Below, one piece after another: positions 8,044 to 61,873 of a stretch of DNA of 64,000 nucleotides. How positions within the stretch are numbered: position 1 is the first letter of the stretch; each line of letters begins with the position of its first letter. The position numbers were made by a program, and so were the translations under genes. The notes below the pieces were generated by a model. The model was not told the origin of the DNA, made no database searches, and worked only from the letters and a program-made list of their open reading frames with translations. Source of the DNA: Pseudoalteromonas sp. '520P1 No. 423' (lineage in GTDB: Bacteria; Pseudomonadota; Gammaproteobacteria; Enterobacterales; Alteromonadaceae); the NCBI RefSeq assembly GCF_001269985.1, contig NZ_BBZB01000001.1, positions 2,666,001 through 2,730,000 of the forward strand. The letters are read 5' to 3'.

Positions 8044-8378
8044 TCACAATATTAAAACTAAAATAAACCCGAGACTCACTAACAATAGCAGAATTAAATT
8101 ATATCTTTGGTTATCACTTTGCTTTCTACTTCTTATACGACCAAGCATCATACCAACGAATGATAAACCAGCGCATGCATACAGTAATAACATTATTATA
8201 TTTTTAGGTTGCGCTAACCTGTTAACCAAAATATTTTACAATGCCATAATCGATTTCTAGACTTGCATAATGAAACATAATTAAAGCAGCCACAAATGCT
8301 AAACAAGATAATATATTGAGTCCCAATATTAACTTTGTATCAACAAAGGTTTATTACTTCGCTTTATTTGCAACTCAT
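8044..8378 (-). pseudogene. Frameshifted small membrane protein remnant
   Basis: The minus strand encodes pieces of one hydrophobic protein in different frames. One frame (about 8240-8360) gives LILGLNILSCLAFVAALIMFH and then IDYGIVKYFG before a stop. The next frame (ending 8044) continues RLAQPKNIIMLLLYACAGLSF, a basic loop (RIRSRKQSDNQR) and a last membrane segment (LILLLLVSLGF). A possible ATG with a short basic start lies at 8376-8378 in a third frame. Together they look like a small protein of about 100 residues with three membrane segments and two frameshifts. The family is not recognised. No ATG precedes the last fragment in its own frame, which argues against a separate gene. Confidence 0.5.
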
Positions 8379-8386
8379 AAATCTCT

Positions 8387-8410
8387 TATATTGAATTTCA
8401 ATTCAATATA
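8387..8410. repeat. Perfect 10-bp inverted repeat
   Basis: TATATTGAAT, loop TTCA, ATTCAATATA. It lies about 155 bases upstream of asnS, in the gap beside the broken membrane protein. It could be a regulator site or a weak hairpin; there is no T-run on either side. The remaining bases up to 8563 show no other gene. Confidence 0.4.
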
Positions 8411-8563
8411 TCAATATCTAATACAATAAAATACTGATTAAAATAGCCCAATGTACTTTTTTTATTTGTTTTACACAGGTAATATAGCCGCCTGAAAAAT
8501 TAAAATTATATTTACATCTGTAATGTATATACAAAAGTATATTACAGAATCATTGGAGTGAAA

Positions 8564-9961
8564 ATGAGCCACACAGCTATCACAGCATTATTAGCAGGCA
8601 AAGTAGAAGCAGAGTCTACGGTTACAGTTAAAGGCTGGATCCGTACACGTCGTGATTCTAAAGCCGGTATTTCTTTCTTAGCCGTCCATGACGGTTCTTG
8701 TTTTGATCCGATCCAAGCTGTGGTTCCTAATTCACTTAATAATTATGAAGAAATCACACGCTTAACAGCGGGTTGTTCTGTTGAAGTAACTGGTACGCTA
8801 GTTAAATCTCAAGGTAAAGGTCAGTCTTTTGAAATTCAAGCTGATACTGTTAACGTTGTTGGTTGGATTGATAACCCAGATACTTACCCTATGTCAGCAA
8901 AACGTCATAGCATTGAGTATTTACGTGAGCATGCACATCTTCGCCCACGTACGAATATGATTGGTGCTGTAACACGTGTTCGTAACTGTTTAGCCCAAGC
9001 AATCCACCGTTTTTACAACGATCGTGGTTTTGTTTGGATCAGCACACCTATCATCACAGCAAGTGACTGTGAAGGCGCTGGCGAAATGTTTAAGGTATCA
9101 ACGTTAGATATGGAGAACTTACCGCGCACTGATAAAGGCGAAGTCGATTATGCTGAAGATTTCTTTGGTAAAGAAGCTTTCTTAACAGTATCTGGTCAGT
9201 TAAATGGTGAGACTTACTGTTCAGCTATGTCAAATATTTATACTTTTGGTCCTACTTTTAGAGCTGAAAATTCAAATACGTCACGTCATTTAGCTGAATT
9301 CTGGATGGTTGAACCTGAAGTCGCCTTTGCAGATTTAGAAGATATCGCAAAACTTGCTGAAGATATGCTTAAATATGTTTTCAAAGCAGTTTTAGATGAA
9401 CGTCGTGATGATATGGAGTTCTTTGCGCAACGTGTAGAAAAGACTGCAATTGAACGTTTAGAAAACTTTGTAGACAAAGACTTTGCACAAGTTGATTACA
9501 CTGAAGCGGTAGAAATCCTAAAAGCCTGTGGCAAGAAATTTGAGTACGCAGTTGAGTGGGGTGTAGATTTACAGTCTGAACATGAGCGTTATTTAGCAGA
9601 AGTACACTTTAACGCACCTGTCGTAATTAAAAACTACCCTAAAGATATCAAAGCTTTCTACATGCGTGCCAATGAAGATGGCAAAACTGTTGCTGCAATG
9701 GATGTTGTTGCACCAGGTATTGGTGAAATCATTGGTGGTGCACAACGTGAAGAGCGTTTAGATGTACTTGATGCACGTCTTGAAGAAATGGGCTTAGATA
9801 AAGAAGATTACAGCTGGTACCGTGATTTACGTAAATTCGGTACTGTGCCTCATTCTGGTTTTGGTTTAGGTTTCGAGCGTTTAGTTGCTTATGTTACAGG
9901 TATGGGCAATGTACGTGATGTAATTGCATTCCCACGTACTAAAGGTAATGCAACTTACTAA
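8564..9961 (+). CDS. asnS: Asparaginyl-tRNA synthetase
   Basis: AsnS charges tRNA-Asn with asparagine. The 465-residue class IIb synthetase has the N-terminal OB fold ([17 protein letters not shown]), then catalytic motif 2 ([19 protein letters not shown]) and motif 3 ([15 protein letters not shown]). It aligns along its whole length with my memory of the E. coli enzyme. I chose ATG 8564 because GGAG at 8555-8558 sits five bases upstream; an in-frame GTG at 8558 overlaps that ribosome binding site. A long hairpin follows the stop. Confidence 0.97.
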
Positions 9962-9978
9962 TATCAAATCTAATGAAT

Positions 9979-10007
9979 ATACCAGTTAGTCTCTCGCTAA
10001 CTGGTAT
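9979..10007 (+). terminator. Hairpin after asnS
   Basis: ATACCAGTTAG (9979-9989), loop tctctcg, CTAACTGGTAT (9997-10007), a perfect 11-base stem, followed by a short T/C-rich run. It probably terminates asnS transcription. Confidence 0.6.
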
Positions 10008-10119
10008 TTCTAAATACCCCTTCTTTTAAATTAAAATTCCCATAATCTAAAATCAACCACTAGCTAGATGACACTTGCCTTGATATGATCTGATTATCAA
10101 TTTTTTGAAAAATGATCTC

Positions 10120-10827
10120 ATGGAAACTTACCAAATTAGTCCTCTTGGGACTATACGCTCACCTTATAAACAAAAATTTGCAATTCCACGACAACCAAGG
10201 TTAATACCTGAGGCACGTGCGCAATTAGAATTTTCTGGTGAATTTAACCGTGAAGAGTTTGTTCGTGGTTTAGCTGATTTTAGTCATATTTGGTTATTAT
10301 TCAGATTTCATGAAACAGCTGATAAAGGTTGGTCCCCTTTGGTTCGCCCTCCTCGATTAGGTGGCAATGAAAAAAAAGGTGTATTTGCGACACGAGCAAC
10401 TTTTAGGCCTAATGCGATTGGTATGAGTGCGGTAAAGTTAGAAGATATCTGCTACAAAAACGGCAAACTTTGGCTGGAGCTTTCAGGTATTGATTTATTA
10501 GATGGCACACCTATCATTGATATCAAACCTTACTTACCCTACTCCGATAGTTTACCTGATGCCACAGCAGGTTTTGCCGATACGCGGCCTGAAACTGAAC
10601 TTGAAGTATGTTTTAGTGAGCAAGCAATCGAATTTTGTATGAAGCAGCAAAACACACACCCACACTTATATCAATTTATTGCTAAAGTTTTAAAGCAAGA
10701 TCCTCGCCCTGCATATAAAAAGAGTAAAGGTGGCGTACAAGATTACGGTATGTGCCTTTATGACTTTAATATTAAGTGGAAAATTGAAAATAATCTTAAT
10801 ACTGTGCTAGAAATTAGACACCAATGA
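10120..10827 (+). CDS. trmO: tRNA-Thr (N6-methyl-t6A37) methyltransferase TrmO
   Basis: TrmO (YaeB/TsaA) adds the N6-methyl group to t6A at position 37 of tRNA-Thr with S-adenosylmethionine, using an unusual beta-barrel fold. The product matches this family: ISPLGTIRSPYKQKFAIPRQP at the start, FSHIWLLFRFHET, the RPNAIGMSAVKLE segment and GTPIIDIKPYLPY. The C-terminal part has DPRPAYKK, as in E. coli. I chose ATG 10120; an upstream in-frame TTG at 10105 is less likely. Length (235 residues) is normal. It stands between asnS and proS and is likely a single unit. Confidence 0.92.
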   Translation: METYQISPLGTIRSPYKQKFAIPRQPRLIPEARAQLEFSGEFNREEFVRGLADFSHIWLLFRFHETADKGWSPLVRPPRLGGNEKKGVFATRATFRPNAIGMSAVKLEDICYKNGKLWLELSGIDLLDGTPIIDIKPYLPYSDSLPDATAGFADTRPETELEVCFSEQAIEFCMKQQNTHPHLYQFIAKVLKQDPRPAYKKSKGGVQDYGMCLYDFNIKWKIENNLNTVLEIRHQ

Positions 10828-10919
10828 TAAGTTAAGCTTTTTTGCAGCCCTTTGCACTGCTACACTAGAGCACTAAACGAAATAAAAAATTTAATACCCC
10901 AATTTATAACGGAAAAAAC

Positions 10920-12641: not shown

Positions 12642-12666
12642 TTTATAATATCTATTGATAGATAAT

Positions 12667-12698
12667 AAAAACCCAATTTAATATAAATTGGGTTTTTT
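12667..12698 (+). terminator. Intrinsic terminator of proS
   Basis: AAAACCCAATTTA (to 12680), loop ATA, TAAATTGGGT (12684-12693), then a T-run to 12698. It has the classic form. Its bases also encode the last codons of the broken L,D-transpeptidase on the opposite strand. Confidence 0.85.
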
Positions 12699-13198
12699 GT
12701 TTTTATAAAGCACATTTTCTTTATCATAAATATCACTCCTGTACTGTACTTGATTATATTCATCAGCCTAGGTGGTCCAATAAACTAAGTGAATTGCTAA
12801 TGGCTGTTTGAGCTTAAACCATTTATTTCCTTCATTATTTTTTATCACTTTATGCCAATAACCCCATCGGGATTTAAGCCATGATGTTTTTGAAATTGAC
12901 TCAATGCGTTAAATAAACCCTTTGAAAATGTATTTTTAGCACTGCGGTCTTGTTTTAAATAACCTAACAGATATAACCTATGTTTTACTTCACTTAACAT
13001 CGGGTGCCTATCACCTAAATTTAAAAATGTTTCAAAATTATTTTCTAAAGGCCTCTCATTATTCAATTTAATAACGCTTGTGGGCATACTATGACTTGAT
13101 ATTAATCGTTTTTCTAATGATGGCGCGTCTTGAGATGCTATTGCCTGACTACAACACAGATAATAAAACACTATCACAAACAAGCTTTTTTGGATCAT
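12678..13198 (-). pseudogene. YcbB/LdtD-like L,D-transpeptidase remnant, catalytic domain deleted
   Basis: L,D-transpeptidases of the YcbB type form 3-3 crosslinks in peptidoglycan; intact ones are usually 500-600 residues. Here an N-terminal piece (13198 to 12845) has a signal peptide (MIQKSLFVIVFYYLCCSQAIA), a spacer, and a peptidoglycan-binding domain (NLGDRHPMLSEVKHRLYLLGY, then LSQFQKHHGLNPDGVIG). It then runs into a stop. Directly after it, in another frame, comes the typical C-terminal end: WFKLKQPLAIHLVYWTT, a TAG (12768-12770) where the family has Trp, then ADEYNQVQYRSDIY to a stop at 12678. The whole YkuD catalytic core with its Cys/His is missing. The gene cannot make an active enzyme. 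Start and signal peptide are intact, so a short exported peptidoglycan-binding protein could still be made. Confidence 0.8.
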
Positions 13199-13338
13199 TA
13201 CTAGACCCCATCATTTAACTTGAATTTAAATTTATGTATGGCGACTAAGTAGGCTAAATCAAAGTTAGATGAAATCTTTTATAGACTTTATTAATATTCA
13301 ATTTTAAAATTTGTTAAAATATTATAAATTTTAGTTAA

Positions 13339-13944: not shown

Positions 13945-14050
13945 CAGGCTCTTCTTGGCTGCGCATAATTCTCGTAAGTTACTCCAAAGGTTAATTGGTT
14001 TTAACTTTACGAGACTGATAAATATTTGTTAGACGCAGATCGCCGGACAT

Positions 14051-14152
14051 TTACCTTCTTACCACCATATGAATATGGTCTTCAGGTATTTCCAATTTGA
14101 CTATATCTATATTTGACCTAATCAAAATGGCTATTAGGTCAAAATTTACACC
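14051..14152 (-). pseudogene. IS200/IS605-type transposase fragment (HUH motif)
   Basis: A short minus-strand frame, closed by stops on both sides, reads IDIVKLEIPEDHIHMVVRR. The segment LEIPEDHIHMVVR closely resembles the catalytic HUH region (His-x-His) of IS200/IS605-like TnpA Y1 transposases. The rest of a transposase (usually 130-150 residues) is absent, and so is any tnpB. A perfect inverted repeat (14112-14143) lies in the same fragment. It is probably the scar of an old insertion in the 244-base gap between the Crp/Fnr gene and fadH. Confidence 0.5.
14112..14143. repeat. Perfect 11-bp inverted repeat beside the transposase scar
   Basis: TTTGACCTAAT (14112-14122), loop caaaatggct, ATTAGGTCAAA (14133-14143). 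It could be an intrinsic terminator for fadH (stop 14189, minus strand), or a hairpin related to the IS200-like element. IS200/IS605 ends are subterminal hairpins. Confidence 0.5.
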
Positions 14153-17014: not shown

Positions 17015-17998
<984 letters not shown>

Positions 17999-28307: not shown

Positions 28308-29080
28308 CTATTATTCCAAAATATCTCGTTTTACCGGATAAATTACAAAGCAAAGCTAGTATTAGATCAGACCTATCAATGTGGCATCGTCATTGTTTCT
28401 GAAATGGATAAACGCGTTATATCTTTGGCCTCAGATCTTGCAAGAAAAGGAATGAAACATCTGATCGGTAATTTACCTAAGCCAATTTTTATTGAAAATC
28501 TAACTGCTATTATGGATAAGCTTCACTTGTTTTTACAAGAAGGTGTGCAATCAAATCTTGAGCTCACCGAAGACGAGTTATTAAATGCAATAACTGAAAA
28601 CCAGATCACGCCTTTTTACTAACCTAAAGTTGATAGTAAGGCCAATAGAGTATCAAGTATAGAAGCGCTAGCGCGTATAGTTAGGCCACAAGATCTTCAC
28701 CCAATTGCGCCTTCTGCGTTTATCCCTGTCGCTCAAAAATATGGAGGGTTTGGCCTTTCTTTAGATGATTTTGGCACTGGGTTTACAAAATTAAATCAGC
28801 TTAGAACGTTACCTTTTACTGAGATAAAGATAGACCGCAGTTTAATCTCAGGGATCCATAATGACCCTTTTGAACAAACGATTGTAAATGCTCTGGTTGA
28901 TTTATCTAAAAAACAAAAGATCGATTTAGTCGCTAAAGGAATAGAGCTTTTTGAAGAACTAGAGTTTTTACAATATTATAACAAAACATTTTGATGCAAG
29001 AATATTTAATTAGTAAACCAAAACCAATTCAGGAATTGTTAAAATCGCATCATGTATGGCAAAAGTCCGTAATAAATTAA
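28308..29080 (+). pseudogene. Receiver-EAL (c-di-GMP phosphodiesterase) remnant
   Basis: Remains of a response regulator fused to an EAL domain, which would hydrolyse cyclic di-GMP. The first piece (to 28622) covers the end of a receiver (CGIVIVSEMDKR, NLPKPI) and reads ITPFY, then TAA (28620-28622) where EAL proteins have Gln (FYQPKVD). The frame continues PKVDSKANRVSSIEALARIV with the EALAR motif intact. An internal deletion then joins FIPVAQKYG to FGLSLDDFGTGFTKLNQL, losing about 70-80 residues. DLVAKGIE has Lys where DLVAEGIE has the catalytic Glu. A further frameshift follows NKTF, and the last 28 codons (MQEYLISKPKPIQELLKS) run to 29080. The gene is non-functional. Confidence 0.85.
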
Positions 29081-34360: not shown

Positions 34361-34839
34361 TTATTCCCAAATTCCTTTTTCTACTTTTCCTTTAAGCTGA
34401 GGGAAGTCACTGGCTTTAAAACTCGGTTCTTCACCAGCACGTTTTTGAGCTAAATAATGTTTAATCACTTTAATTGCAAGATTAGATAATAATACTAATG
34501 CTACTAAGTTTACCAAAGCCATTAAACCCATAGAAGCATCAGCCAAATTCCAAACAATATCAATTTTAGCAATCGCACCAAACATCACCATACCCACAGC
34601 ACATAACCTAAATGGAGTTAAAAAGTGGGTTTTATTTTTACTTAAAATAAAATATTTGATTCAGCATAAGAGTAATTTGCAATGATAGAAGTAAAACAAA
34701 ATAGTAAAATAGAGCCCGCGATAAAAGCACCCGCCCATTGACCTACATGTGATTGCAGCGCAATAATCGTCAATGAAACCAGGCATAAACCTTGAAAACA
34801 ACAACTGCTAATTAACAAAAAAACCATCAATATTAACAT
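34361..34839 (-). pseudogene. Sodium:alanine symporter (AGCS family) remnant
   Basis: Only the last third of an AGCS transporter is left; family members have about 480-500 residues. The upstream piece reads VSLTIIALQSHVGQWAGAFIA, then FTSIIANYSYAESNILF and a stop. One base of shift restores the continuing frame: LSKNKTHFLTPFRLCAVGMVMFG, then WNLADASMGLMALVNL, to the normal end KGIWE at 34361. The N-terminal two thirds with the sodium and substrate sites are missing. It is therefore a truncated, frameshifted pseudogene. Confidence 0.85.
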
Positions 34840-35694: not shown

Positions 35695-36236
35695 TTAATA
35701 AGTTATGTTTTCTTCTATCGTTTTGTCTAAATCTTGAAATAAGTTGTTAATATTACTATCTAATTCATCTACTTTATTTTTATCTCTTTCACTGAGTTTG
35801 TTATAGCTAGATTGTAAAATATTATCAATTTCACTTCTAATTTAGATAAAGTGTCTTGTTCATTTGGGCTAAGTGATTTTTCGGCTGAAGTAAAAATACT
35901 GTCTATCTTGTCAAATAACGCGTTAATTTTTTTATATTGCGCTTCGTTAGGTTGCTCGCTCTCGAATAAGGTATCTAATTGCTGATAACTCGTTTCGAAC
36001 TCTTGTTTTTGCTCTGCAGATAAGTGTGTCATATAAATGTTATCAAATAAAGAATCGATTTCTTGAGTCAATTTGCCTAAATCAGAAATGTTTAAAGTAT
36101 CATTCGTATGTGTTACCTGATTTACTGGCTTAATGTCTTGGTTATTTGTTTGATTAGTACTTGATATAGCGGAGATATGTGTTAGGTTTTGAATTTGCCT
36201 TTTAGTTATCTTAAAAGTGTCTAATTTGGTAACAGA
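35695..36236 (-). pseudogene. Frameshifted helical repeat protein next to the broken regulator
   Basis: The minus strand encodes a helical, acidic protein in two frames. The first frame runs from about 36236 without an ATG: TKLDTFKITKRQ, a linker, then EIDSLFDNIYMTHLSAEQKQ and KINALFDKIDSIFTSAEKSL. At about 35845 the sense continues in a shifted frame: EIDNILQSSYNKLSERDKNK, then NINNLFQDLDKTIEENITY to TAA at 35695. The EID-x-LF motif recurs, which suggests three helical repeats of about 40 residues. The start is not identifiable. The family is unknown; its position just downstream of an OmpR-type regulator could suggest a periplasmic accessory protein of the CpxP kind, but that is weak. Confidence 0.5.
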
Positions 36237-36330: not shown

Positions 36331-37049
<719 letters not shown>

Positions 37050-41962: not shown

Positions 41963-42631
41963 ATGATATTTCGTATTTTATTAACTTTAAGTCTATTTAT
42001 ATTTTCTTCATTATCACAGGCTTGAATTTATAAGTGTGAACTCGACGGCATATTAAGCTTCAGACAGTTTCCTTGCAGTGACGATGCTGTTGAAATTATA
42101 GTCAACAATTCAACTTCCACTTATGAAAGTGATTTAAATAAACATGATTTATATAGTGAAACAGTGATAGATGCTTTAACAAAGCTACGTTTAGTACTTA
42201 TGAAAATACAAGAAGTTAAGCTTCAAAAACGACACTTTAAGAATCAACTTAAAACCGAGATATTAGCGCTCAATTCCAAAGCGAATAAATCATTAAGTAA
42301 ATTTAACCACCAAGAACTTGATGATAATAAGGCAAATATCACCGCAGGCTACACTCAAAAAATCAATAATTCTCAGGATATGTTAGACAACTTAATAACA
42401 GCAAAATCAGATCTGATGCATAAAATAAGCATGCAAAACAATATCCTTAAATTTGATCAGCAATTTAATGGTAATACGCAAGTTCAACTAATAAATAGCA
42501 TCCTCCAATCACATAAAATTAATACTAAAATCAGAAAGCATCGAGATGACTTACGTTTATATCAAGTGAATTTAAACAACGATTTGGCTCGCCTAAAAAG
42601 ACAATCTGAAATAGCGAATGATCCGAAGTAA
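41963..42631 (+). pseudogene. DUF4124-type exported protein with one in-frame TGA
   Basis: One frame runs from ATG 41963-41965 to TAA at 42629-42631 with a single interruption. The first 20 codons are a signal peptide (MIFRILLTLSLFIFSSLSQA). Then comes TGA (42023-42025), then IYKCELDGILSFRQFPCSDDA, the cysteine pattern of DUF4124. A long coiled-coil C-terminal part follows (VLMKIQEVKLQKRHFKNQ). The lost residue may be Trp (TGG to TGA); that is my inference. Since the rest of the frame is clean, the mutation is probably recent. An internal start such as ATG 42202 could still make a non-exported coiled-coil fragment. Confidence 0.7.
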
Positions 42632-42746
42632 TATAAAACGCAATCTGCTAATATAACAAAGTGATATAATTCACAAATAACTGCTTCCTATCAGATCATC
42701 AACAATCTTGAGCCAGAGAAGAAAAATTATAACAATAACTGATGAA

Positions 42747-45680: not shown

Positions 45681-45767
45681 TCAAATTTAGCTCAGTATTT
45701 ATTAATTTATAAAAGTAAATATATTACCGGCCAATCAATTCATATTGATGGCGGATTATTGTCGTAA
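45681..45767 (+). pseudogene. C-terminal scrap of a short-chain dehydrogenase
   Basis: In the 288-base gap upstream of the DUF2982 gene, a plus-strand frame reads LAQYLLIYKSKYITGQSIHI and then DGGLLS before a TAA at 45765-45767. The segment YITGQSIHIDGG is the classic end of SDR-family oxidoreductases. Everything upstream (NAD motif, YxxxK site) is missing. It is an isolated remnant. Confidence 0.65.
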
Positions 45768-47164: not shown

Positions 47165-47304
47165 TTAAGCAGCTATTAAATTGGACTCTCGCCCTTTATA
47201 TTTTTCTTTTCTATTAAATGAACCTTTTCCTTTTTTCGCTTTTACAACTTGTGTTCTAAACACTTTAGATGTTACCAAGGCTACTAAATAATAATTGAAA
47301 TGGA
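47165..47304 (-). pseudogene. arfA: ArfA-like ribosome rescue factor, N-terminus degenerate
   Basis: The minus-strand frame contains LVTSKVFRTQVVKAKKGKGSFNRKEKYK split as LVTSKVFRTQVVKAKKGKGS and FNRKEKYKGRES. This strongly resembles ArfA, which rescues stalled ribosomes when tmRNA fails (family core: ALVTS-x-LF, then KKGKGSY-x-RK). The expected start with K-x-N-x-x-K-A-L is corrupted (RIVHFNYYLVAL), and no ATG lies upstream in frame; those bases are the signal-peptide region of the broken M18 gene on the other strand. Either the N-terminus was lost by a deletion that joined the two genes, or an unusual start is used. Confidence 0.5.
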
Positions 47305-47306
47305 CA

Positions 47307-48581
47307 ATGCGAAATAAAATTTTATTAGCTGCATCTATCGCAGCAATGCTGACAACCTCAAGTGCTATAGCCAAAAAAGAGATTAAAAATTCTTGGTTAG
47401 CCTTATCTCAATCAGAGTTAAAACAAGTTCAATCTTATAATGAAGAATATAAATCACTTATAGATAAAGGCCGCACTGAGCTGACTTTTGTAACAGAAAC
47501 TAAAAAACTTGTTGAAAAATCAGGTTTTAAGCAACTAACTGACTATAGTCAAATTGTTCCTGGTGCTAAGTTATATAGCATATAACCGTGACCGGGCTAT
47601 GACATTAATGGTTATTGATACTAAACCAGTATCTGATGGCGTTAGCATTGCAGGTGCGCATATTGATTAACCGTCTATTGAATTAAAAGGCCGCCCACTT
47701 TATGAAAAAAATGGTTTTGCGCTTTTTCAAACTTATACTCATGGCGATATGAATAATTACCAATGGGTTAATATTCCATTAGCCTTAATTGGTCGTGTTG
47801 ATAAAAAAGATGGCACGCATGTTAATATCAATATCGGTCTAAATGAAAACGATCCAATATTAATTATTCCTGATTTAGCACCACATGTTGTCCGTGATTA
47901 CCGCAAACGTACTAACAGAGATGTTATCAAAAAAGAAGAATTAGATATTATCATTGCTTCAAAACCGGGTAAAGACTCAACGGTTAAACAAGAAGTGACA
48001 AATTTCTTAAAAAATAATTATGATATCGACATCGCTGATTTAGTGTCTGCTGAACTTGCTTTAGTACTAGCTGTTAAACCAAAGATGTCGGTAATTTAAA
48101 TAATACAGGCGCAGATTCAAGCGCCCTAGTTGATACAATTAGCCAATTACTTTATCAACAATCACCAACAACATATAATGATTACATATTACGTAAAACA
48201 TTACGTAAAACTAAAGTAATCTCAGTAGATGTTACCCCTAGTGTAAACCCTAACTGGCCTGGCGTTTGGGAATTAGGCAATGCACCTAAATTAGGTGAAG
48301 GCATTAATATCAAACTATATGGGGGTGGTTTTAATACCAACTCTGAATACATAGCTTGGACGCATAACTATTTAGATAACGCAGATATTTTATGGCAAAC
48401 AAGCACATATAAAGGTAAAGCATCTGGCGGTACTATCGCAAGTGCACTATCTGAAAACAACATGGATGTAATTGATTTTGGTGTGCCAGTTATTGGAATG
48501 CACTCTCCTTATGCGGTTGCCTCTAAAGTAGATATTTACTCAATGTATTCTGCAATTAAGGGATTTTTCCTGAATAAATAA
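47307..48581 (+). pseudogene. M18-type zinc aminopeptidase remnant
   Basis: M18 aminopeptidases release N-terminal (often acidic) residues using two metal ions. This copy begins with a signal peptide (MRNKILLAASIAAMLTTSSAIA), then reads KNSWLALSQSE and VPGAKLYSI before a frameshift. The sense continues NRDRAMTLMVIDTKP and AGAHID (metal ligands His and Asp), interrupted by TAA at 47668-47670 where Ser is expected. It goes on PSIELKGRPLYEKNGFALFQ and YQWVNIPLALIGRV to a second frameshift near 48085 (PK-DVG). The catalytic middle after DVG is deleted. The end reads ALSENNMDVIDFGVPVIGMHS and SPYAVASKVDIYSMY to TAA at 48581. Confidence 0.85.
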
Positions 48582-48616
48582 TTTCAACGATTATTGATTT
48601 AACTTTTTTAAATAAA

Positions 48617-48640
48617 AACCGACTTATTAGTCGGTTGTTT
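48617..48640 (+). terminator. Intrinsic terminator after the M18 remnant
   Basis: AACCGACT (48617-48624), loop tatt, AGTCGGTT (48629-48636), then GTTTT. The terminator is kept although the gene is broken. Confidence 0.8.
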
Positions 48641-48965
48641 TATATCAATTAGTTAAGTGAGTGAGCTAATATCAATTTAAATAAGCTCGATAGATGTTAA
48701 GGGTTAAATATCGCTTTCATTCACGATTAATTTTATGGGTTAAAACGCAGTATTTTTGAAATTGATGTAATTTATAGATGTTAATTTACACAATATTTGT
48801 GTATGAACTGTTTTGTGACCTGCCATACACCGATTTATCTTTTTTCATACCAGTTAAGTTATGATGGCCCTCGCTATTATGGTGTTTTTAAATAACTAAC
48901 CTCGTATTCTATTAAAATTATTAGACTTCTACTTGAATAAATACAATTTTCCTATTTAGGTTTAA
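48641..48965. other. Gap without recognisable gene
   Basis: About 325 AT-rich bases. I see no coding pattern, strong hairpin or promoter that I can defend. A 13-codon frame at 48860-48898 (MMALAIMVFLNN) is too short to call. Confidence 0.4.
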
Positions 48966-49166
48966 TCTTCAAATTTTATTAATATTAATTATTGGGGTAA
49001 ATACTCAAAGAGCTGTGAAAATAATGGGACACAAGAGGGTAAAGAATTCTGCAATTATTTAATGAAAAACACTGCAACTGAATTCATGAATATAAATTTC
49101 TCAATTGGCGATGATGTAATCAAAGACCTTATAGAAATCATAGCTGAAAGTGAGCCTGTAGAATAA
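48966..49166 (+). pseudogene. C-terminal fragment of an unknown protein
   Basis: An open frame between stops gives NINYWGKYSKSCENNGTQEG, then KEFCNYLMKNTATEFMNINF, and ends IIAESEPVE. There is no start codon with a ribosome binding site; ATG 49062 would give only 34 residues. Two cysteines and the mixed composition look protein-like. The family is not recognised. It is probably the tail of a lost gene. Confidence 0.4.
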
Positions 49167-49256
49167 GTTGCATGCAAGGGACTCAGCATAGATAAAACAC
49201 AATAAGCTTTCACTCAGTTCCCTATTATAGCGTTTAGATAACTATACAAGCTAGCT

Positions 49257-49742
49257 ATGTTTCAAGGAGATTATACCATTTCAATTAGTCTCATTACTGA
49301 AAACTATTGGGCAGATATCGTAAAAATACAGAAAGAAGCCTATAACGATATCGCCCCTGAAGATCTAAATATTCTAAAAAATAAATGGCACTCATCACCT
49401 CAAACCTGTGCGGTATATTTAAACCATAAAGGTAAAGCGATAGCTTACTTATTAGCGCACCCATGGGCAAGTGAAATTACCCCAAAGTTAAATGAAAAAA
49501 TATCTGTAACTCATAGCTCAACTTTATTTATTCATGATCTCGCATTAGTGCTAGAAGGAAGAGGAAAAAATATTGCTAAAGCGTTAGTGCAGAACCTAAT
49601 TGAAAATGCCCAAGTTCAGAGTTTTTTAAAAATACAATTAGTAGCGGTTCAAAACTCAACTGAATTTTGGGCTAAATTTGGTTTTATAAATATGCCCCTA
49701 GTAAAGAAGTTTGCTCAAGTTATGGTGAAAACGCACAATTAA
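49257..49742 (+). CDS. GNAT family N-acetyltransferase
   Basis: A 161-residue acetyltransferase-like protein. The GNAT fold is seen as ISLITENYWADIVKIQKEAY at the start, the strand GKAIAYLLAHPW, FIHDLALVLEGRGKNIAKAL (motif A, with the acetyl-CoA loop degenerate as EGRGKN), and a final VAVQNSTEFWAKFGF (motif B). The substrate is unknown. The ATG at 49257 has no strong ribosome binding site. It stands between degenerate DNA and the antiporter gene. Confidence 0.75.
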   Translation: MFQGDYTISISLITENYWADIVKIQKEAYNDIAPEDLNILKNKWHSSPQTCAVYLNHKGKAIAYLLAHPWASEITPKLNEKISVTHSSTLFIHDLALVLEGRGKNIAKALVQNLIENAQVQSFLKIQLVAVQNSTEFWAKFGFINMPLVKKFAQVMVKTHN

Positions 49743-49770
49743 TGGAGTTAGAGACATAACAAATAAAGGA

Positions 49771-49790
49771 GGTGTCGCGTAGCCGACACC
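49771..49790. repeat. GC-rich hairpin after the GNAT gene
   Basis: GGTGTCG (49771-49777), loop cgtagc, CGACACC (49784-49790). The surrounding 100 bases are more GC-rich than the neighbourhood and include CTGG...CCAG. It could terminate the GNAT gene; there is only a short T-run (TTAT). Confidence 0.45.
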
Positions 49791-49922
49791 TTATCTGGAT
49801 GTTGAACCAGCCAGAGTCTACGTCGTATGACTTAGCTCAACAATAGCGCCAATACCCGTATCAATCACCTTATAAATAAAAAGGCTTATTAAATTCGGTT
49901 TTTTGGTTTATACAAATATAAA

Positions 49923-51962
49923 TTAACTATTTAACTTTTTACACTCATGCATTTTAAATTCTACTTCCTCGATTAATTTTTCGGCATCTATTTCTGAAAT
50001 CATGCCTTCATGAGATAATTCTTGTATCTTTTTACGTTCTGTATTGAGTAAAATCCGTAATGCTAAATAAGATTCAACCTGTTTCACTAAATGGGGAGAT
50101 GTTTCTCTAAAGTTTTTTAAAGTTTCAATAGAGAAATCATTTACAGCTTTCATTTGCATCATGGCTTGCTCTAATTGTGCAACTTCCAGAGATAGACTAG
50201 GTGCTATTTTTAAAATATAACTACTCGCTTCAAATAATCCTCTCGCGCTTTCAAAAATAATTACGTGTTGTTTATAACTTGCAGATTTTGCATACGTACT
50301 CATTATGGGTAATGATTGACTTCTAATTATCCATTTAGGCATTTGCCACTTCCGTACAATATAAGGCCGAGGCCATATTTTAGGTTTACCATCAAGGGAC
50401 TCCTCTATTGCTTGAACTAAAATCTGAGTAGCATCTGTACTTAATAAGCCTTTAGCAAATTGATTCCAATAAAATTGCCGCTCTGATTCAAGTAATTTTC
50501 GAAGATACTCCACTTGAGTATCTATTTCTTGTTCATCGACATATGGGACATTAATAGAATGTACTTTTGAATCAACTAAAGGCCAATTCACAGCTTTTAA
50601 GTTTGTGTCGCCTTGTAATTGCTCTCTTACTTTTATGATCTCATCTGAAACTTTAACTTGTACTTTTGCTAATGTTTTTTGTTTTGCAACGGGTAACTTA
50701 TCTAATCCTAATTTAGCCATAACAAAACGCATAGATGAGCCATTAACAATAATCGTTAAAACCACAATACCAGCTGTTAAAAATAAGATTTGATCTCTGA
50801 GTTGTATGTCTAAAGACTCATTAGTTGCCACAATTAATGCAAGAGCTAGCGAAACAGCACCTCTTAAGCCCCCCCAAATAAGCACGATTGATTTTTCTTT
50901 AGTTAGGCCAATACCGATGCGCGCCAGAATTGGCATTAAGCCAACGATAACTACGGTTCTAATAATTAAGATCCCCATGAATATGATTGCTAAGTATTCC
51001 CAATTTGCTAAATCAGCTACACCGAGTCTTGTTGATATAACTAAACCAACTAAGATGAAAATTAATGTATTGAATAAAAACGATAAGGTATGCCAAAAAT
51101 GATGCATATGTTCCATCACTTCAGGTGAAAAACGCGTACGTCCAGGTCCCGCATAAATTAATGCTAAAGTGACAACACTTACAACACCTGACGCATGAAA
51201 TACGTGTTCTGATAAATAAAAAACAACATAAGGTAGCACTAAAGTTAATGCAATTTCTATTAAGCTATCATTAAATAAAGAGCCTATAAAAGCCAAACTA
51301 ATACCAGCAACAACAGCACCTATGACCACTCCAATTATTACCACTCTAAAAAATTCAACTATGACGGCTAACGTATTAAATTCTGGCTTTATTTGCGTTG
51401 CAAGTGTGAGAAATAACGTAAATAAAACAATTGCAGTACCATCATTAAGCAAAGACTCTCCTTCTAATAATGTTTGTAACCTTGCCCTTGAGCACATCTC
51501 CTTTAAAAGTGCGACAACAGCAACTGGATCAGTAGCACTAACAATGGCACCAAACATTAAGGCTGTTGGAATAGTCCACTCCCAAGGCAATACCCACATA
51601 CTTAATATTGCAGTGAATAAAGTACAAATAATTAAGCCTGGAATAGCCAATAATGCAATTTGCGATAACATACGTTTAAATAAATGTACTTCAAGAGAAA
51701 AAGCAGACTCAAAAACCAAAGCTGGCAAGAAAATAAACATGATCAGGTTGGCATCTAACTGACTTGCTAGCGAAAAAGATGCTTTTACTTCATTGAATAT
51801 AGGAGTTGTTAATTCGAAATCAAGCATGCTACCAATAAGCATGCCTAATAATAACAAAGCAACCGAATAAGGTATGGCTGTATTTCGCAACAGTCGCCTT
51901 AATAAAATGCCTAATAATATCGAAATCACAAAAAACATTAATAAAAGTAAGATTGTATGCAT
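49923..51962 (-). CDS. CPA1-family sodium:proton antiporter
   Basis: A 679-residue inner-membrane antiporter of the NhaP/NHE (CPA1) type. It has about 12 N-terminal membrane segments with the ion-binding motif AIVSATDPVAVVALL and LLEGESLLNDGTAIVLF, plus WGGLRGAVSLALALIV. A long soluble C-terminal part (about residues 420-679) is helical and could regulate activity. Exchange of sodium (or potassium) for protons controls pH and salt. The start MHTILLLLMFF is reasonable. Intact and monocistronic. Confidence 0.92.
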   Translation of the reverse strand: MHTILLLLMFFVISILLGILLRRLLRNTAIPYSVALLLLGMLIGSMLDFELTTPIFNEVKASFSLASQLDANLIMFIFLPALVFESAFSLEVHLFKRMLSQIALLAIPGLIICTLFTAILSMWVLPWEWTIPTALMFGAIVSATDPVAVVALLKEMCSRARLQTLLEGESLLNDGTAIVLFTLFLTLATQIKPEFNTLAVIVEFFRVVIIGVVIGAVVAGISLAFIGSLFNDSLIEIALTLVLPYVVFYLSEHVFHASGVVSVVTLALIYAGPGRTRFSPEVMEHMHHFWHTLSFLFNTLIFILVGLVISTRLGVADLANWEYLAIIFMGILIIRTVVIVGLMPILARIGIGLTKEKSIVLIWGGLRGAVSLALALIVATNESLDIQLRDQILFLTAGIVVLTIIVNGSSMRFVMAKLGLDKLPVAKQKTLAKVQVKVSDEIIKVREQLQGDTNLKAVNWPLVDSKVHSINVPYVDEQEIDTQVEYLRKLLESERQFYWNQFAKGLLSTDATQILVQAIEESLDGKPKIWPRPYIVRKWQMPKWIIRSQSLPIMSTYAKSASYKQHVIIFESARGLFEASSYILKIAPSLSLEVAQLEQAMMQMKAVNDFSIETLKNFRETSPHLVKQVESYLALRILLNTERKKIQELSHEGMISEIDAEKLIEEVEFKMHECKKLNS

Positions 51963-52048
51963 AAATTCACCTAAACACGCTTGTTAAGTCTTTTAAAAGT
52001 AGTCGTTAATCACGATTTAATCGACTTATTTTTAATCATAAAAACATT

Positions 52049-52847
52049 TTATTTTGCTAACTTTTCCATTAGTACATTAACTGCATCTAAATGTTCTGGG
52101 TTGTTATGACACACACCTTGAAATACTGCACATATACCTAAAAAGTCACTAAACTCGATTCGCTGAGCCATTTTCATCAACATTTTTGTTAACCTTAAAC
52201 AAGCTATCGGTTTGTTTGCGATTTCAGAGGCTAATTCCATTGCTTTAATCATTAAATCTAGCGGTTCTACTGTGTCTAATACAATGCCAATTTCCTTTGC
52301 TTCATTCGCATTTATCACACGCCCTGTAAATGTTAATTCTGCCGCTTTTTGATAACTAATAATACGTTGCATAAACCAAGCGCCACTGTCACTAGGTATC
52401 AATCCTAAGTTAGCAAAAGTTTCTCCAAATTTAGCTTTAGTGGATGCGAGTCTTATATCGCACATATTAGCTAAATCAAAACCCGCACCGATAGCTGGCC
52501 ATTTATTGCTGCAATTACTGGTACTTCCAGTTTATTTATTGCCAATGTCATTTGTTGAATGCCTTCTCTGTATTTTTTTCTAGGGTTTGCACATACCCAG
52601 CAAAATCGCCTGAACGCTCTGCCATATCTTTTATATTACCTTCAGATGAAAACGCAGCCCCCTCACCTATAATTACTAACACAGCGACTTGATGATTTTT
52701 ATTGATTCAGTGAACCGTTTTAACAATATCATTTACGATTTCAATGCCTGTTAAGGCTTTCTTAACATCATCCCGGTTAAAGCTTAATAGTGCGATATTG
52801 TTATTTAGTGAAATATTACAGTCGATCAGTTTTGGTAAATTTCCCAT
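52049..52847 (-). pseudogene. Enoyl-CoA hydratase/isomerase remnant
   Basis: The pieces together form a crotonase-family enzyme of about 260 residues. The first frame starts at ATG 52845-52847 (MGNLPKLIDCNISL) and reads FNRDDVKKALTG; codon 47 is TGA (52707-52709), where related enzymes have Trp (VDWINQN-like; here VH-stop-INKN). It goes on VAVLVIIGEGAAFSSEGNIK to a frameshift near 52575. Then comes MTLAINKLEVPVIAAING, then a second shift into AIGAGFDLANMCDIRLAST. The open C-terminal 138 residues include FGETFANLGLIPSDSGAWF, with Ser-Asp-Ser replacing the usual Gly-Asp-Gly. The gene is inactive. Confidence 0.85.
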
Positions 52848-52951
52848 ATTCTATTTACATTTAGATACATATAATCCGACATAGTAATTATCACTTGAAT
52901 TTATATTTTTCACATCCATTTATATATAAAGCTCAATAATTGAATTTAATA

Positions 52952-55463: not shown

Positions 55464-56546
55464 ATGTCTCGCTCGATTTTAAAAACACTCTCTAAAACAC
55501 TCTTCAATACAGAAAGTTTTTCTGCTTTTATTGCCCCATTTAATAAAGCGCTACCTCACACTAGTTCTGATGACTTTCACGCAGCTAAAGTGACTCATAT
55601 TTCTGATAATAATGATGAAATATTCACTTTATCTTTAAAAGTTGATTCAAAGTTTTATTTTTATCCTGGTCAATACGTCGAATTATTAGTAGAAATTAAT
55701 GGCCGTTTTATTAAACGTTGCTTTAGTATTTCATCATCAATCGAGCAGTTTAAAAAGCACAATACAATTGACTTAACCATTAAAAAGCAAGTATCGGGCA
55801 AAGTGACGCCTTGGCTAAGACAAAACCTTGCATTAAATACGCCAGTCGCAATCTCTCAAGCAAAAGGCGAATTTATTTTAAAGAGTAAAGCTAAAGACAT
55901 GTTGTTTATTGCATCTGGTAGCGGTATTACACCTTTTAAAAGCTTACTTATGAGCCATTTAGCATCAGGAGAGCTTAAACAAGTCAATTTGATGTATTTT
56001 GAGCGTGGTGAAAAACATATATTTGTAAAAGAGTTTGAGCAATTAGCACAAAATTATCCGAATTTTAAACTCGTTAAAGTAAACACAGCCAAGCAAGGTC
56101 GTCTATCTGTCGCTCTGTTAAATAAATTCTGTGATGATTTTACAAATAGAAATATATATTTATGTGGATCTGCAAACATGATCACAGTCAATACGCAATT
56201 ATTACTTAATAGCTCAGTCGCTAGAACACAAATATTCAGTGAGCAATTCACGAGTATTCAGGTCGCTGATTTAAATCTTAAACAAGATCGCATAATTAAT
56301 TATCTAAAAAGTAATAAAACTGTATCTCAAGTTAAAGAAGAGCAAAATAACTTATTATCTGTGTCGCAAAGCAACGATATAAAAGCAAATTATGGTTGCG
56401 GCATTGGGATCTGTCATGAGTGTAAATGTAAAAAACACTCTGGTATTGTTTTTAATACCAAAACGCAAACATATTCAGATAATGGCGAAGAAGACATTCA
56501 ACTGTGCATCAGTATTCCTGTCACACATGTATCGTTAGGACTGTAA
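55464..56546 (+). CDS. Ferredoxin-type flavin reductase (FAD/NAD + 2Fe-2S)
   Basis: A 360-residue electron-transfer flavoprotein. The FAD domain (about 40-140) has FYPGQYVELLVEI and RCFSISSS, the NAD(P)H domain has ASGSGITPFKSLL and LCGSANM. The C-terminal plant-type [2Fe-2S] domain has YGCGIGICHECKC (Cys312, Cys317, Cys320) and a last Cys348 (QLCISIP). It ends two bases before the desaturase start, so the pair forms an operon. By context it delivers electrons from NAD(P)H to the desaturase. Confidence 0.9.
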   Translation: MSRSILKTLSKTLFNTESFSAFIAPFNKALPHTSSDDFHAAKVTHISDNNDEIFTLSLKVDSKFYFYPGQYVELLVEINGRFIKRCFSISSSIEQFKKHNTIDLTIKKQVSGKVTPWLRQNLALNTPVAISQAKGEFILKSKAKDMLFIASGSGITPFKSLLMSHLASGELKQVNLMYFERGEKHIFVKEFEQLAQNYPNFKLVKVNTAKQGRLSVALLNKFCDDFTNRNIYLCGSANMITVNTQLLLNSSVARTQIFSEQFTSIQVADLNLKQDRIINYLKSNKTVSQVKEEQNNLLSVSQSNDIKANYGCGIGICHECKCKKHSGIVFNTKTQTYSDNGEEDIQLCISIPVTHVSLGL

Positions 56547-56548
56547 CA

Positions 56549-57655
56549 ATGAACAAAATAAATGAAGAGCAGATGGCCAGCTTAGCATTAGAATTAAATA
56601 CGGTACGCGATAAACAACTATCTGAAGTAGGACAAACAGATGCTAATTACATTCGAAATTTAATTAAAGTGCAAAGAAGTGCTGAGATTATAGGTCGTAT
56701 ATTGATTGTACTTGGTTTTATTACCCCTATTCTTTGGGTTTTTGGTGTTATATCTCTCTCATTATCAAAAATTTTAGATAATATGGAGATTGGTCATAAT
56801 GTTTTACATGGTCAATATGATTGGATGAACGACCCCTATATTAACTCTCAAAAATTTGAATGGGATATTGCCTGTGATGCCGCGTCATGGCGCAGAGTAC
56901 ATAACTATGAACACCATACATATACAAATATTATTAGCAAAGATCGTGATTTTGGTTATGGTTTATTACGTTTAAGCAATGATTACCCTTGGCGCTTAAA
57001 GAATCTTTGGCAATCAGTTATTTACTTTATTTTAAGTGTATTATTTCAATGGGGTGTTTCTTTTCATGAGTTGGCAGGTGAGCGTGTATTTTTTGGTAAA
57101 AAGAAAGATAACAGAGAAAGCAAAACATCTGATGAACAACTAAAAAAAGCTTTTTTTAGTAAAGGCGGTCGACAAATAGTAAAAGACTATATTCTATTCC
57201 CCGCTTTAGCCGGCCCATTTTTTCTTTGGGTATTTGCTGGAAATTTAGCCGCAAACATTATTCGTAATTTATGGACTTCAACGATCATATTCTGCGGTCA
57301 CTTCACCTCAGGCTCTTTTACCTTTACTGAAAAAGAATGCGAAAATGAAAGCAAGGGTCATTGGTATTATCGTCAGATGTTAGGTTCAGCGAATATCACA
57401 GGTGGTAAAGTTTTTCATATATTGACTGGGCATTTAAGTTTTCAGGTTGAGCATCATTTATTCCCAGATGTACCCGCTCATAGGTATGTAGCGATGTCTA
57501 AAGAGGTTAAAGAAATCGCAGAAAAATATGGTATCCCTTACAATACGGGTGGATTTGCTAAACAATATTTTTCAGTCTTAAAACGTGTTTTTTATTTTTC
57601 ATTCCCTGTAAGGGGCAACAAAACACTTTATCCTAAGTACAATGAGTTAGAATAA
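56549..57655 (+). CDS. Membrane fatty-acyl desaturase
   Basis: A 368-residue di-iron desaturase of the acyl-lipid/acyl-CoA type. The three histidine boxes are HNVLH (His83-His87), HNYEHH (His118, His122, His123) and QVEHH (His302, His303). Hydrophobic segments lie around residues 45-75, 155-172 and 215-255. It follows the reductase gene after two bases. I chose ATG 56549, since an in-frame extension would overlap the reductase by 40 bases. It probably introduces double bonds into membrane fatty acids, which fits a cold-water lifestyle; the position of the bond is unknown. Confidence 0.92.
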   Translation: MNKINEEQMASLALELNTVRDKQLSEVGQTDANYIRNLIKVQRSAEIIGRILIVLGFITPILWVFGVISLSLSKILDNMEIGHNVLHGQYDWMNDPYINSQKFEWDIACDAASWRRVHNYEHHTYTNIISKDRDFGYGLLRLSNDYPWRLKNLWQSVIYFILSVLFQWGVSFHELAGERVFFGKKKDNRESKTSDEQLKKAFFSKGGRQIVKDYILFPALAGPFFLWVFAGNLAANIIRNLWTSTIIFCGHFTSGSFTFTEKECENESKGHWYYRQMLGSANITGGKVFHILTGHLSFQVEHHLFPDVPAHRYVAMSKEVKEIAEKYGIPYNTGGFAKQYFSVLKRVFYFSFPVRGNKTLYPKYNELE

Positions 57656-57676
57656 TAATATTTTAATTATTTATTT

Positions 57677-58072: not shown

Positions 58073-58127
58073 TTTTACTTCGCTTTTATGTTATAAATAC
58101 TGAAATCACAAAATATTATTACATAAA

Positions 58128-59471: not shown

Positions 59472-59482
59472 GGATATCGACT

Positions 59483-59860
59483 ATGACTATGGAAATTATA
59501 AAAAACTACTTACTATCTAAACCGGAAGCTAAAATTGATACACCTTTTGGCGAAGATGTGACTGTTTTTAAAGTACGCAACAAAATGTTTGCAACCCTAT
59601 CAATTGGTAAAGCAGGCAGTGGTGAAAATCAAGACTGGTGGGTTAATTTAAAATGTGACCCTGATGAAGCCCTTGCCCTTCGTGATATATTTGATGCTGT
59701 GATCCCAGGCTATCATATGAATAAAAGGTTATGGAACACAGTAATTCTTAATGGCTCAATCCCACAAGGTGAAATTGAGCGTATGATGGATAATTCTTAT
59801 ATGCTCGTTGTTAATAATATGCCTACAAAGGATAGAGAAGCAATAGCACTTCAACTTTAA
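59483..59860 (+). CDS. MmcQ/YjbR family DNA-binding-like protein
   Basis: A 125-residue protein with the YjbR fold (a double-wing motif): IIKNYLLSKPEAKIDTPFGED, the strand VFKVRNKMFATLSIG, WWVNLKCDPDEALALRD, then PGYHMNKRLWNTVILNGSIP and DNSYMLVVNNMP. The family's role is unclear. Length is normal. Starts at 59483 and 59489 are both possible. Its last 10 codons are part of a 50-base tandem repeat that continues past the stop. Confidence 0.85.
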   Translation: MTMEIIKNYLLSKPEAKIDTPFGEDVTVFKVRNKMFATLSIGKAGSGENQDWWVNLKCDPDEALALRDIFDAVIPGYHMNKRLWNTVILNGSIPQGEIERMMDNSYMLVVNNMPTKDREAIALQL

Positions 59861-59950
59861 ACAACATGGTTTCAATTAAAGAAAGAGAAGCGATAGCACT
59901 TCAACTTTAAACAATATGGTTTCAATTAAAGATAGAGAAGCTATAACCTT
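59831..59950. repeat. 50-bp tandem repeat (about 2.3 copies) over the YjbR gene end
   Basis: GATAGAGAAG recurs at 59831, 59881 (as GAAAGAGAAG) and 59931, exactly 50 bases apart. The first two units also share AATAGCACTTCAACTTTAA (GATAGC in the second) and ATGGTTTCAATTAAAG, with few differences. The first unit contains the real stop (59858-59860), so the gene product is not lengthened. It arose by tandem duplication of the gene's 3' end. Confidence 0.9.
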
Positions 59951-60094
59951 CAACATATGTTATTTCACGTTTAAGTATTTTAGCTAACAGATATATTTTA
60001 GCCTGATGGTTTAGGGCTTAACATTTGAAATGGCGGGTAATAATCTATAAATACTTTTTTCATTTATTGGAAAAGTAATATTATAAAAACGATT

Positions 60095-61873
60095 TTAGTT
60101 ATCATAGCCATCCCCTAAATTTTGATTAGAGTATTGTGCAGTTTTAACTGTTAACTCATTTGTGATATTTATACCTTTAAAAAATACAGTTAAATTTTCA
60201 TTCACATCATAACTACCGCTTATATCCACTTGCGCATAATCATTTACGTAATGACCATCAGGCCATGAGCGTGGTTTAGATTGTATAAATCTATCTCGTT
60301 TGTTATGTGCGATACGAAATTGATAAGCATCTTTTTCATAGAATAAAATTAAGTTAGATGCATCGCCTAAACCAACTAATGGAAGAGGTTGTGATAGGTC
60401 ATCTGCAGTGGATTCCCTATCAACAAAAGTTTTATTTACGGTTACACCTAAGCCATCAAGTGGTTCAGGTAAGTTTGTAAACTTATGCTGAACTGCTATT
60501 TCATAACCTTCAATATTAGCTTGTTCTGAATTAACAGGGCGAGAAATACGATAATCATAAGTACCACTTGGTACTGTTACTTTTTCATCCACTTCTTCAG
60601 TTGCTAAATAGCCATCAACATCTTTTTTAAACATGGCTGCAGCAGCATAATTGCCCTCTTCATAATACCATTCTAGCGCTAAATCTAAATTTTTAGACTC
60701 AAATGGGCCAAGGTTAGGATTAGAACCCCAGTCAGTTAGATTATCTACTCGACCACCACCATAACCAGATTCTGGTGACATTTCATCCAGCTCTGGGCGT
60801 GTGATACTTGTTCAGTACACAAAACGTGCCACAATATCATCTGTTAACTCTAGCTTTGCATTCAAGCTTGGTAATCAATTATCATAAGTATTTTTTACAG
60901 TTAATTCGGTGTAATCATCGCCTTCAATTGCTATAACAACACCTGCTTCTGTTTCTGAAGGTTCTAAATCTAACAATGGGATCGCAAAACCGATCGATTT
61001 ACTTGTCGTTTGAACATATCTTAAGCCAGTTGTAACTGACCATGGCATTTGAGCTATTTCGCCATCAAGGTAAATATCAGCATATATCGCTTTAAGTTGT
61101 TCATTTACTTCATAAGTCCAAGGCACCTGGTGCATAGTATGACCATCGTTATCAGCCAATAGTTTATGCACTTGTTCAGGGTCATCCATCATATCAATAA
61201 CTTCATCAGAAGTGATGTAATCAAAAAAGTCCTCAGAATCAAAACTTAACCAGTTTTGTTCAGGATTGCCACTGGCACCAGATAAAAATCCATTGGCATC
61301 AAAATTATTAAATAGACTTTCTGGTAACATAATCGCATTACTATTATCGCCCTATAACCAAGGTAGCGGACGTGTTGTTCTTTGATATCTGCTAGATAAT
61401 GTTCTATCTGAAATCATTGCACCAAAGCCAACTTTTTCTAATACACCTTGATCTAATAACCAAATACCATCAATTTTATATTCAAATACTTCGTCTTCAA
61501 CAATCGTACCAGAACGATCGCCCCAACCTGCTTTTAAACCTGATGTTGAATTATAACGATCAAATGATAAAACCGGTAATTGTGATCCAGAACTACGATC
61601 ATATGTATAATCACTTGGTCGTGACGCAATCGTATCCGTCATACCCGCTTTAGGATCCGAATCTGTTTGAGAGTAACTGATATCAAAGTTTAAATTTAAA
61701 TCATCATTGAAATCCTAATCCATATTCAAGCCAAACGCTTTTAAAGTATTTGAAGTCTCAGACTGGCGTTCCATAAAGTCGCTATTACTGCCTTTGCCCA
61801 TAGAAAGTTTAACCACAGTACCATTTTCATCTAATGTAATTGAGGATGTTTTGGTTGGTTTTCTATATACTTG
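60095..61873 (-). pseudogene. TonB-dependent receptor remnant with four in-frame stops
   Basis: One reading frame holds about 590 residues of a large TonB-dependent receptor, without the N-terminal signal peptide and plug (about a third of the protein). It is interrupted by TAG at 61715-61717 (NMD-stop-DF), TAG at 61352-61354 (PWL-stop-GDNSN), TGA at 60875-60877 (TYDN-stop-LPSLNAKLELTDD) and TGA at 60812-60814 (FVY-stop-TSITRPELDEM). The flanking text is clearly that of receptor barrels, and Trp suits at least the first and third stops. There are no frameshifts. The end at 60095 (GDGYDN) may also be premature. It is divergent from the GntR/FCD regulator, so it may have been its target. Confidence 0.88.

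Follow-up and report, generated by a model that had tools for sequence, protein, structure and literature searches.

Does a cluster of broken genes among intact housekeeping genes mark a bacterium that has recently become confined to a host? The question is raised by a stretch of 64,000 nucleotides (the window hereafter; contig 1, positions 2666001-2730000) of Pseudoalteromonas sp. '520P1 No. 423' (the focal genome), in which the original prediction, made from the letters alone, saw about 14 damaged genes and read them as active genome erosion in a recently host-restricted or population-bottlenecked lineage. Comparison with two relatives revealed that the broken accessory genes among healthy core genes are real and that purifying selection on the intact genes is normal, and supported a gene decay that is active and, in one gene family, extends beyond the window. 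Active decay with several recent deaths stood up to this comparison and the proposed cause did not; the losses probably reflect a deletion-biased turnover of dispensable accessory genes, in which the formation of pseudogenes has perhaps increased of late.

Genomes and stretches compared

The focal genome, that of a marine bacterium of the P. denitrificans / NBT06-2 group, is large (5,387,613 bases in two contigs of 4.07 and 1.32 Mb) and has a GC content of about 35%. The relatives, obtained from a protein search, were Pseudoalteromonas sp. NBT06-2 as sister (G003/G022), a strain not found by name in the literature searched, and P. denitrificans DSM 6059 as outgroup (G021). G003, assigned to the genus of the focal genome, gave hits at the positions also hit by the record that holds the NBT06-2 locus. 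Colinear blocks from both relatives match most of the window at 66-96% nucleotide identity. The NBT06-2 assembly is a draft of 460 contigs, and parts only of the two relatives' genomes were compared; the whole analysis rests on these two relatives and on one whole-genome family, the EAL-domain proteins, with a significant excess of broken copies. Lesions were located by searching the open frames of the relatives against the window and were sized by alignment, and protein families were checked with Pfam on the intact relative copies or on the surviving pieces. An Rfam scan of the window gave no match at the gathering threshold.

Broken genes among clean core genes

Twelve of the 14 predicted items were recovered (Table 1), ten of them through an intact syntenic copy in NBT06-2 and/or P. 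denitrificans, the comparison with close relatives that had been proposed as a check, and two as fragments. Both relatives carry an intact OmpR-type regulator, M18 aminopeptidase and enoyl-CoA hydratase (the NBT06-2 hydratase being possibly shortened); the L,D-transpeptidase, the REC-EAL protein, the helical protein, ArfA and a 259-amino-acid protein are intact in P. denitrificans only, and the small membrane-type protein and the short-chain dehydrogenase (SDR) in NBT06-2 only. Fragments remain of the alanine symporter and of the TonB receptor, at sites where neither relative has an intact copy. The gene for the 259-amino-acid protein, at 42.0 kb, is probably the item that had been labelled 'DUF4124', a label for which this protein gave no Pfam support. 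The 'DUF3303' item could not be confirmed, its X-masked reading giving no Pfam match, and neither could an 'unknown tail'. The description of the core genes as clean was borne out: those with a counterpart in the compared stretches of NBT06-2 or P. denitrificans, to which the judgement applies, are open along the matched length.

A few of the lesions are single small indels of the kind that a consensus or assembly error could produce. Such errors are nevertheless unlikely for most lesions because the deletions span 136-584 bp and single genes carry several lesions; with degraded sequence between the lesions and open core genes alongside, we regard them as a very improbable source of the pattern.

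Selection and composition of the intact genes

In 61 triplets of genes intact in the three genomes, the ratio of nonsynonymous to synonymous divergence (dN/dS), which the original prediction had proposed to compute, was not raised on the focal branch (~0.075, against 0.085 for NBT06-2 and 0.100 for P. denitrificans). The branch dN values were 0.0326, 0.0353 and 0.0812, respectively, and the branch dS values 0.435, 0.414 and 0.811, although dS can be apportioned to the branches only roughly because synonymous distances to P. denitrificans exceed 1.2. Amino acid changes unique to the lineage numbered 675 in the focal genome and 833 in NBT06-2. Relaxed selection on the intact genes is therefore not seen, focal dN and unique changes both lying below those of NBT06-2. 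A drift towards AT was rejected as well, since the GC content at third codon positions (GC3) is not lowered (0.247 in the focal genome, 0.236 in NBT06-2 and 0.244 in P. denitrificans).

Coding density, in a measure that treats open fragments as genes, is 80.8% in the window and 80.8% over all 464 kb sampled of the focal genome, window included. The corresponding values are 81-82% in NBT06-2, 80-85% in P. denitrificans and 82.5-85% in three other members of the genus that were sampled, and low coding density was therefore rejected as a sign of erosion. Neither this measure nor dN/dS, unique changes or GC3 supports the claim of a recently host-restricted or bottlenecked lineage. Matches to the one transposase family searched, DDE_Tnp_1, number 16 in the focal genome, 14 in NBT06-2 and 0-8 in 11 other genomes; as NBT06-2 also stands above these 11, the high count is not special to the focal lineage.

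The same triplets bear on a mutator state, for example through loss of mismatch repair, which would raise the rate of small indels and could account for a number of small indels that shift the frame, one gene alone having three separate ones of a single base. The focal branch dS is however ordinary when set against that of NBT06-2, the matched core genes are open, and large deletions feature prominently among the lesions of the more degraded remnants, so that a mutator state appears improbable.

Age of the losses

Four genes intact in a relative and located in the window or in the 56 kb that flank it, encoding the OmpR-type regulator, the M18 aminopeptidase, the enoyl-CoA hydratase and an AFG1/ZapE-type ATPase, were compared piecewise over 1258 codons. 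They carry 72 lineage-unique amino acid changes in the focal genome against 53 in NBT06-2, where the focal share expected from the intact genes is 0.448 (p=0.005). Taking 2.3 nonsynonymous sites per codon, the excess over expectation is what would accrue if the genes had been unconstrained for about 2% of the branch that leads from the NBT06-2 split, which supports a recent inactivation of the four genes, on average about 2% of the branch ago. The bulk of the excess comes from the OmpR-type regulator (11 changes vs 4) and the M18 aminopeptidase (27 vs 17). The hydratase (18 vs 16) and the ATPase (16 vs 16) show little difference, which points to still younger inactivations.

Older losses stand beside these. 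For remnants with an intact copy in a single relative, dN to that copy is 0.46 for the membrane-type protein, 0.36 for the 259-amino-acid protein, 0.32 for the L,D-transpeptidase, 0.27 for the helical protein and 0.20 for the REC-EAL protein, the reference being a mean of 0.11 between intact genes of the focal genome and P. denitrificans; part of these high values may stem from a faster evolution of such genes before their death. When the figures were recomputed without low-identity pieces, the four-gene result was unchanged and the dN of the helical protein went from 0.378 to 0.267. The remnants are thus of mixed age, the youngest with few lesions and intact copies in relatives and the more degraded ones alongside.

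Counts of broken genes in both directions

A symmetric count covered 180 kb of the focal genome (the window, its 56 kb of flanks and three of 20 spaced 20-kb samples, L073, L076 and L085), 179 kb of NBT06-2 and 196 kb of P. denitrificans. It disregarded stops falling within the initial 25 residues, the initial 10% or the final 7%, as well as best matches below 45% identity, frame changes of fewer than 15 codons and cases at stretch edges. Two lesions confirmed separately, those of the membrane-type protein and of the L,D-transpeptidase, are thereby omitted. A P. denitrificans frame of 220 amino acids (in C32), counted as broken in both the focal genome and NBT06-2, may be over-long and was retained. 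A looser automatic count gave 17 NBT06-2 genes and 21 P. denitrificans genes broken in the focal genome, 7 focal and 17 P. denitrificans genes broken in NBT06-2, and 5 focal and 10 NBT06-2 genes broken in P. denitrificans; it was set aside because many of its cases came from differences in the start site or from weak matches to paralogous domains.

Among P. denitrificans genes with a counterpart, 14 of 90 are broken in the focal genome and 5 of 82 in NBT06-2 (Fisher p=0.055), and the former figure contrasts with 2 of 84 focal genes broken in P. denitrificans (Fisher p=0.003). Between the two sisters the difference is smaller, 7 of 108 NBT06-2 genes being broken in the focal genome against 4 of 109 focal genes in NBT06-2 (Fisher p=0.37); 3 of 77 NBT06-2 genes are broken in P. 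denitrificans. Intact P. denitrificans genes number 76 in the focal genome and 77 in NBT06-2. The 14 P. denitrificans genes broken in the focal genome left no trace in the NBT06-2 stretches in seven cases, and are broken there in two, intact in four and of another class in one. Many of these genes thus appear to have gone from NBT06-2 as well, either with a later cleaning of the sites or by outright deletion.

Gene families across the genomes

The EAL-domain proteins gave 34 matches in the focal genome, merged by hand into 27 loci, of which 20 are intact and seven broken (five split over several frames or with stops and two truncated). NBT06-2 has 20 matches, none with stops, P. denitrificans 38, one of them with a stop (37 stop-free), and a further genome (G002) 30, none with stops; partial-domain matches inside frames longer than 300 codons were taken as intact in all four genomes. 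The excess of broken loci is significant against NBT06-2 (7/27 vs 0/20, Fisher p=0.015) and against NBT06-2, P. denitrificans and G002 together (p=0.00014). Five of the seven broken loci, the REC-EAL gene of the window and four others, have a syntenic copy in P. denitrificans or NBT06-2. The remaining two gave a match of 121 bp only (L145) or none (L147) in the 12 relative stretches compared, five of NBT06-2 and seven of P. denitrificans, chosen from the EAL matches.

In the adh_short family of short-chain dehydrogenases, two of 18 focal matches are broken, one with stops and one a piece of 46 positions in a frame of 83 codons, and none of the 56 in the relatives (p=0.057), where 20 matches in NBT06-2, 19 in P. 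denitrificans and 17 in G002 are free of stops. TonB barrel matches are alike in number (63 in the focal genome, 59 in NBT06-2 and 64 in P. denitrificans), so the TonB receptor set is not contracted.

The counts and the families bear both ways on the reading that nothing here is specific to the lineage, the window showing a clade-wide background turnover and having drawn attention because it was picked for its broken genes. The window's coding density equals that of the genome sample and is close to that of the relatives, the sisters do not differ significantly in genes of each other broken, P. denitrificans genes are retained equally in both, and the TonB matches listed for the focal genome include none with a stop. 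The EAL comparison across whole genomes and the larger share of P. denitrificans genes broken in the focal genome than in NBT06-2 stand against it, and we hold this reading to be rather unlikely.

A host restriction or bottleneck young enough to have left pseudogenes but no mark yet on dN/dS, base composition or genome size would accord with the EAL excess, with the adh_short figures and with the four young inactivations in the window and its flanks. Such a change may be too recent to have marked dN/dS. This reading sits less well with lineage-unique changes that are not raised and a GC3 that has not fallen, with a genome of 5.39 Mb, a DDE_Tnp_1 count close to that of NBT06-2 and a TonB match count that is kept, and with the absence of any trace in NBT06-2 of seven of the 14 P. 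denitrificans genes broken in the focal genome. In luminous anglerfish symbionts, whose ongoing reduction has been published, transposases moreover account for 28 and 31% of coding sequences (PMC6020299). On this balance a recent restriction or bottleneck is unlikely.

Probable turnover of dispensable accessory genes

Under the favoured explanation, deletion-biased turnover, a small indel, stop or deletion would first inactivate a dispensable accessory gene, and later deletions would shrink it until the site is finally clean. NBT06-2 would have advanced further in this process for many of the genes concerned, which would make these genes dispensable in a niche that the two share. The visible excess in the focal genome would then reflect genes that have lately been dying faster or are being cleared more slowly, and not weak selection over the whole genome.

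Several points weigh against this explanation. The EAL excess means that the focal lineage is not simply at the background of its clade. Among the TonB matches listed, stops are found in NBT06-2 (three) and P. denitrificans (one) and in none of the focal ones, and for NBT06-2 genes intact in P. denitrificans the broken share in the focal genome is not significantly higher than the one set against it (5/69 vs 3/68, p=0.72; small counts). Some absences in NBT06-2 may also be gaps or genes located elsewhere, given its draft in 460 contigs and the partial comparison.

A bolder version, which we put forward tentatively and do not consider the probable one, is erosion with no population-genetic cause: in a free-living marine lineage with a large genome, a change of niche alone would set off a burst of pseudogenes and dismantle parts of the accessory and cyclic-di-GMP repertoire, in parallel to the losses of the sister and with the core under full purifying selection.

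The window is a clear case in which dense pseudogenes could be misread as host restriction. Comparing three genomes allows gene death to be told apart from relaxed selection, and the first was seen without the second. If the EAL pattern extends to other families, it would provide an example of second-messenger enzymes lost in parallel among marine bacteria, and one that can be dated.

Remnants and their surroundings

The coordinates of the remnants are collected in Table 1, together with two broken genes that were absent from the original list, a scrap of a family-3 solute-binding protein and the AFG1/ZapE-type ATPase.

Table 1. Broken genes in and next to the window, with the state of the corresponding sites in the two relatives (aa, amino acids).
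Gene or remnant	Position in window	Strand	Lesion or surviving part	NBT06-2	P. denitrificans
Small membrane-type protein (114 aa), remnant	8047..8373	-	five stops, two out-of-frame deletions; 38% aa identity to NBT06-2 copy; no Pfam family over cut-off	open 114-aa frame (L032:1852-2193)	
L,D-transpeptidase (YkuD + peptidoglycan-binding), remnant	12684..13204	-	584-bp internal deletion	no room for gene at corresponding site	intact, 435 aa, PF03734 + PF01471
REC-EAL protein, remnant	28368..29074	+	261-bp internal deletion, frame change	site between two contig ends; 48 bp of DNA only matched by the P. denitrificans stretch	intact, 407 aa, PF00072 + PF00563
Sodium:alanine symporter, C-terminal fragment	34364..34660	-	PF01235 positions 311-392 of 392	smaller remnant at corresponding site; intact copy would not fit	intact copy would not fit at this site
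Helical protein, remnant	35698..36188	-	217-bp deletion, frame change; no Pfam family over cut-off	no room for gene	intact, 245 aa
OmpR-type response regulator	36334..37049	-	frameshift and in-frame indels; recently inactivated	intact, 232 aa, PF00072 + PF00486	intact, 239 aa
Unnamed 259-aa protein, remnant	41972..42739	+	three stops; no Pfam family	no room for gene	intact
SDR dehydrogenase, scrap	45681..45761	+	27 residues	intact, 250 aa, PF13561 + PF00106	
ArfA	47168..47290	-	start and first residues lost; lesion also removes intergenic stretch common to ArfA and M18 gene	not seen at corresponding site	intact, 60 aa, PF03889
M18 aminopeptidase	47295..48578	+	frameshift and 136-bp deletion; recently inactivated	intact, 473 aa, PF02127	intact, 473 aa
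Enoyl-CoA hydratase	52052..52919	-	several separate small indels, three frames; recently inactivated	246-aa frame beside ~300 bp of extra DNA; copy may itself be shortened	intact, 289 aa, PF00378
Family-3 solute-binding protein, scrap	59937..60054	-			intact, 226 aa, PF00497
TonB-dependent receptor, three open pieces	60098..61714	-	PF00593 positions 241-435 in piece 60098-60811; other two pieces without Pfam match over cut-off	no room at this site	no room at this site
AFG1/ZapE-type ATPase	L132:894-2020, just downstream of window		10-bp deletion	intact	intact

Next to the M18 gene, the interval 48585-49910 measures about 1.3 kb in the focal genome and 117-145 bp in NBT06-2 and P. denitrificans; in the focal genome it contains a GNAT acetyltransferase gene with an open frame (49257-49742), followed at 49754-49834 by a short hairpin repeat. 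Similar copies of the repeat occur on several NBT06-2 contigs, on one P. denitrificans contig and elsewhere in the focal genome. A reading of this repeat as an integron-type attC site was tried and dropped. At 49920-52142, a sodium/proton exchanger gene, together with its edge, matches NBT06-2 at 93-96% identity between flanking blocks at 80-84%, an alignment that suggests a recent exchange or strong constraint. Further on, at 55464-57655, a ferredoxin-reductase-like protein adjoins a fatty acid desaturase, with no match in the NBT06-2 and P. denitrificans stretches compared. Outside the window, one 20-kb sample (L078, G000:C1:2850001-2870000) has a coding density of 0.53 and many repeated mobile-looking pieces, the longest pairs being 93-100% identical, and looks like a graveyard of mobile elements; one repeated piece we take, by eye, to resemble an IS110-type transposase.

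Comparison with known systems

In Salmonella, Kuo and Ochman (PMC2916853) describe the youngest pseudogenes as removed fast by deletion. The focal genome resembles such ordinary turnover in that young pseudogenes lie between intact core genes and in the company of more degraded ones, and differs from it in having at least one family, that of the EAL proteins, with more broken copies than in both close relatives. The luminous Enterovibrio symbionts of anglerfish, whose genomes are undergoing reduction (PMC6020299), likewise have many pseudogenes; unlike them, the focal genome shows neither a transposase explosion, judged by the single family searched, nor a small size, and its pseudogenes come without relaxed selection or a shift of composition. 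Within the genus, gene loss has been reported across Pseudoalteromonas (PMC5240218). In contrast to the losses reported there, the dying genes themselves are visible here, in a low-GC group that may not be among the strains of that study.

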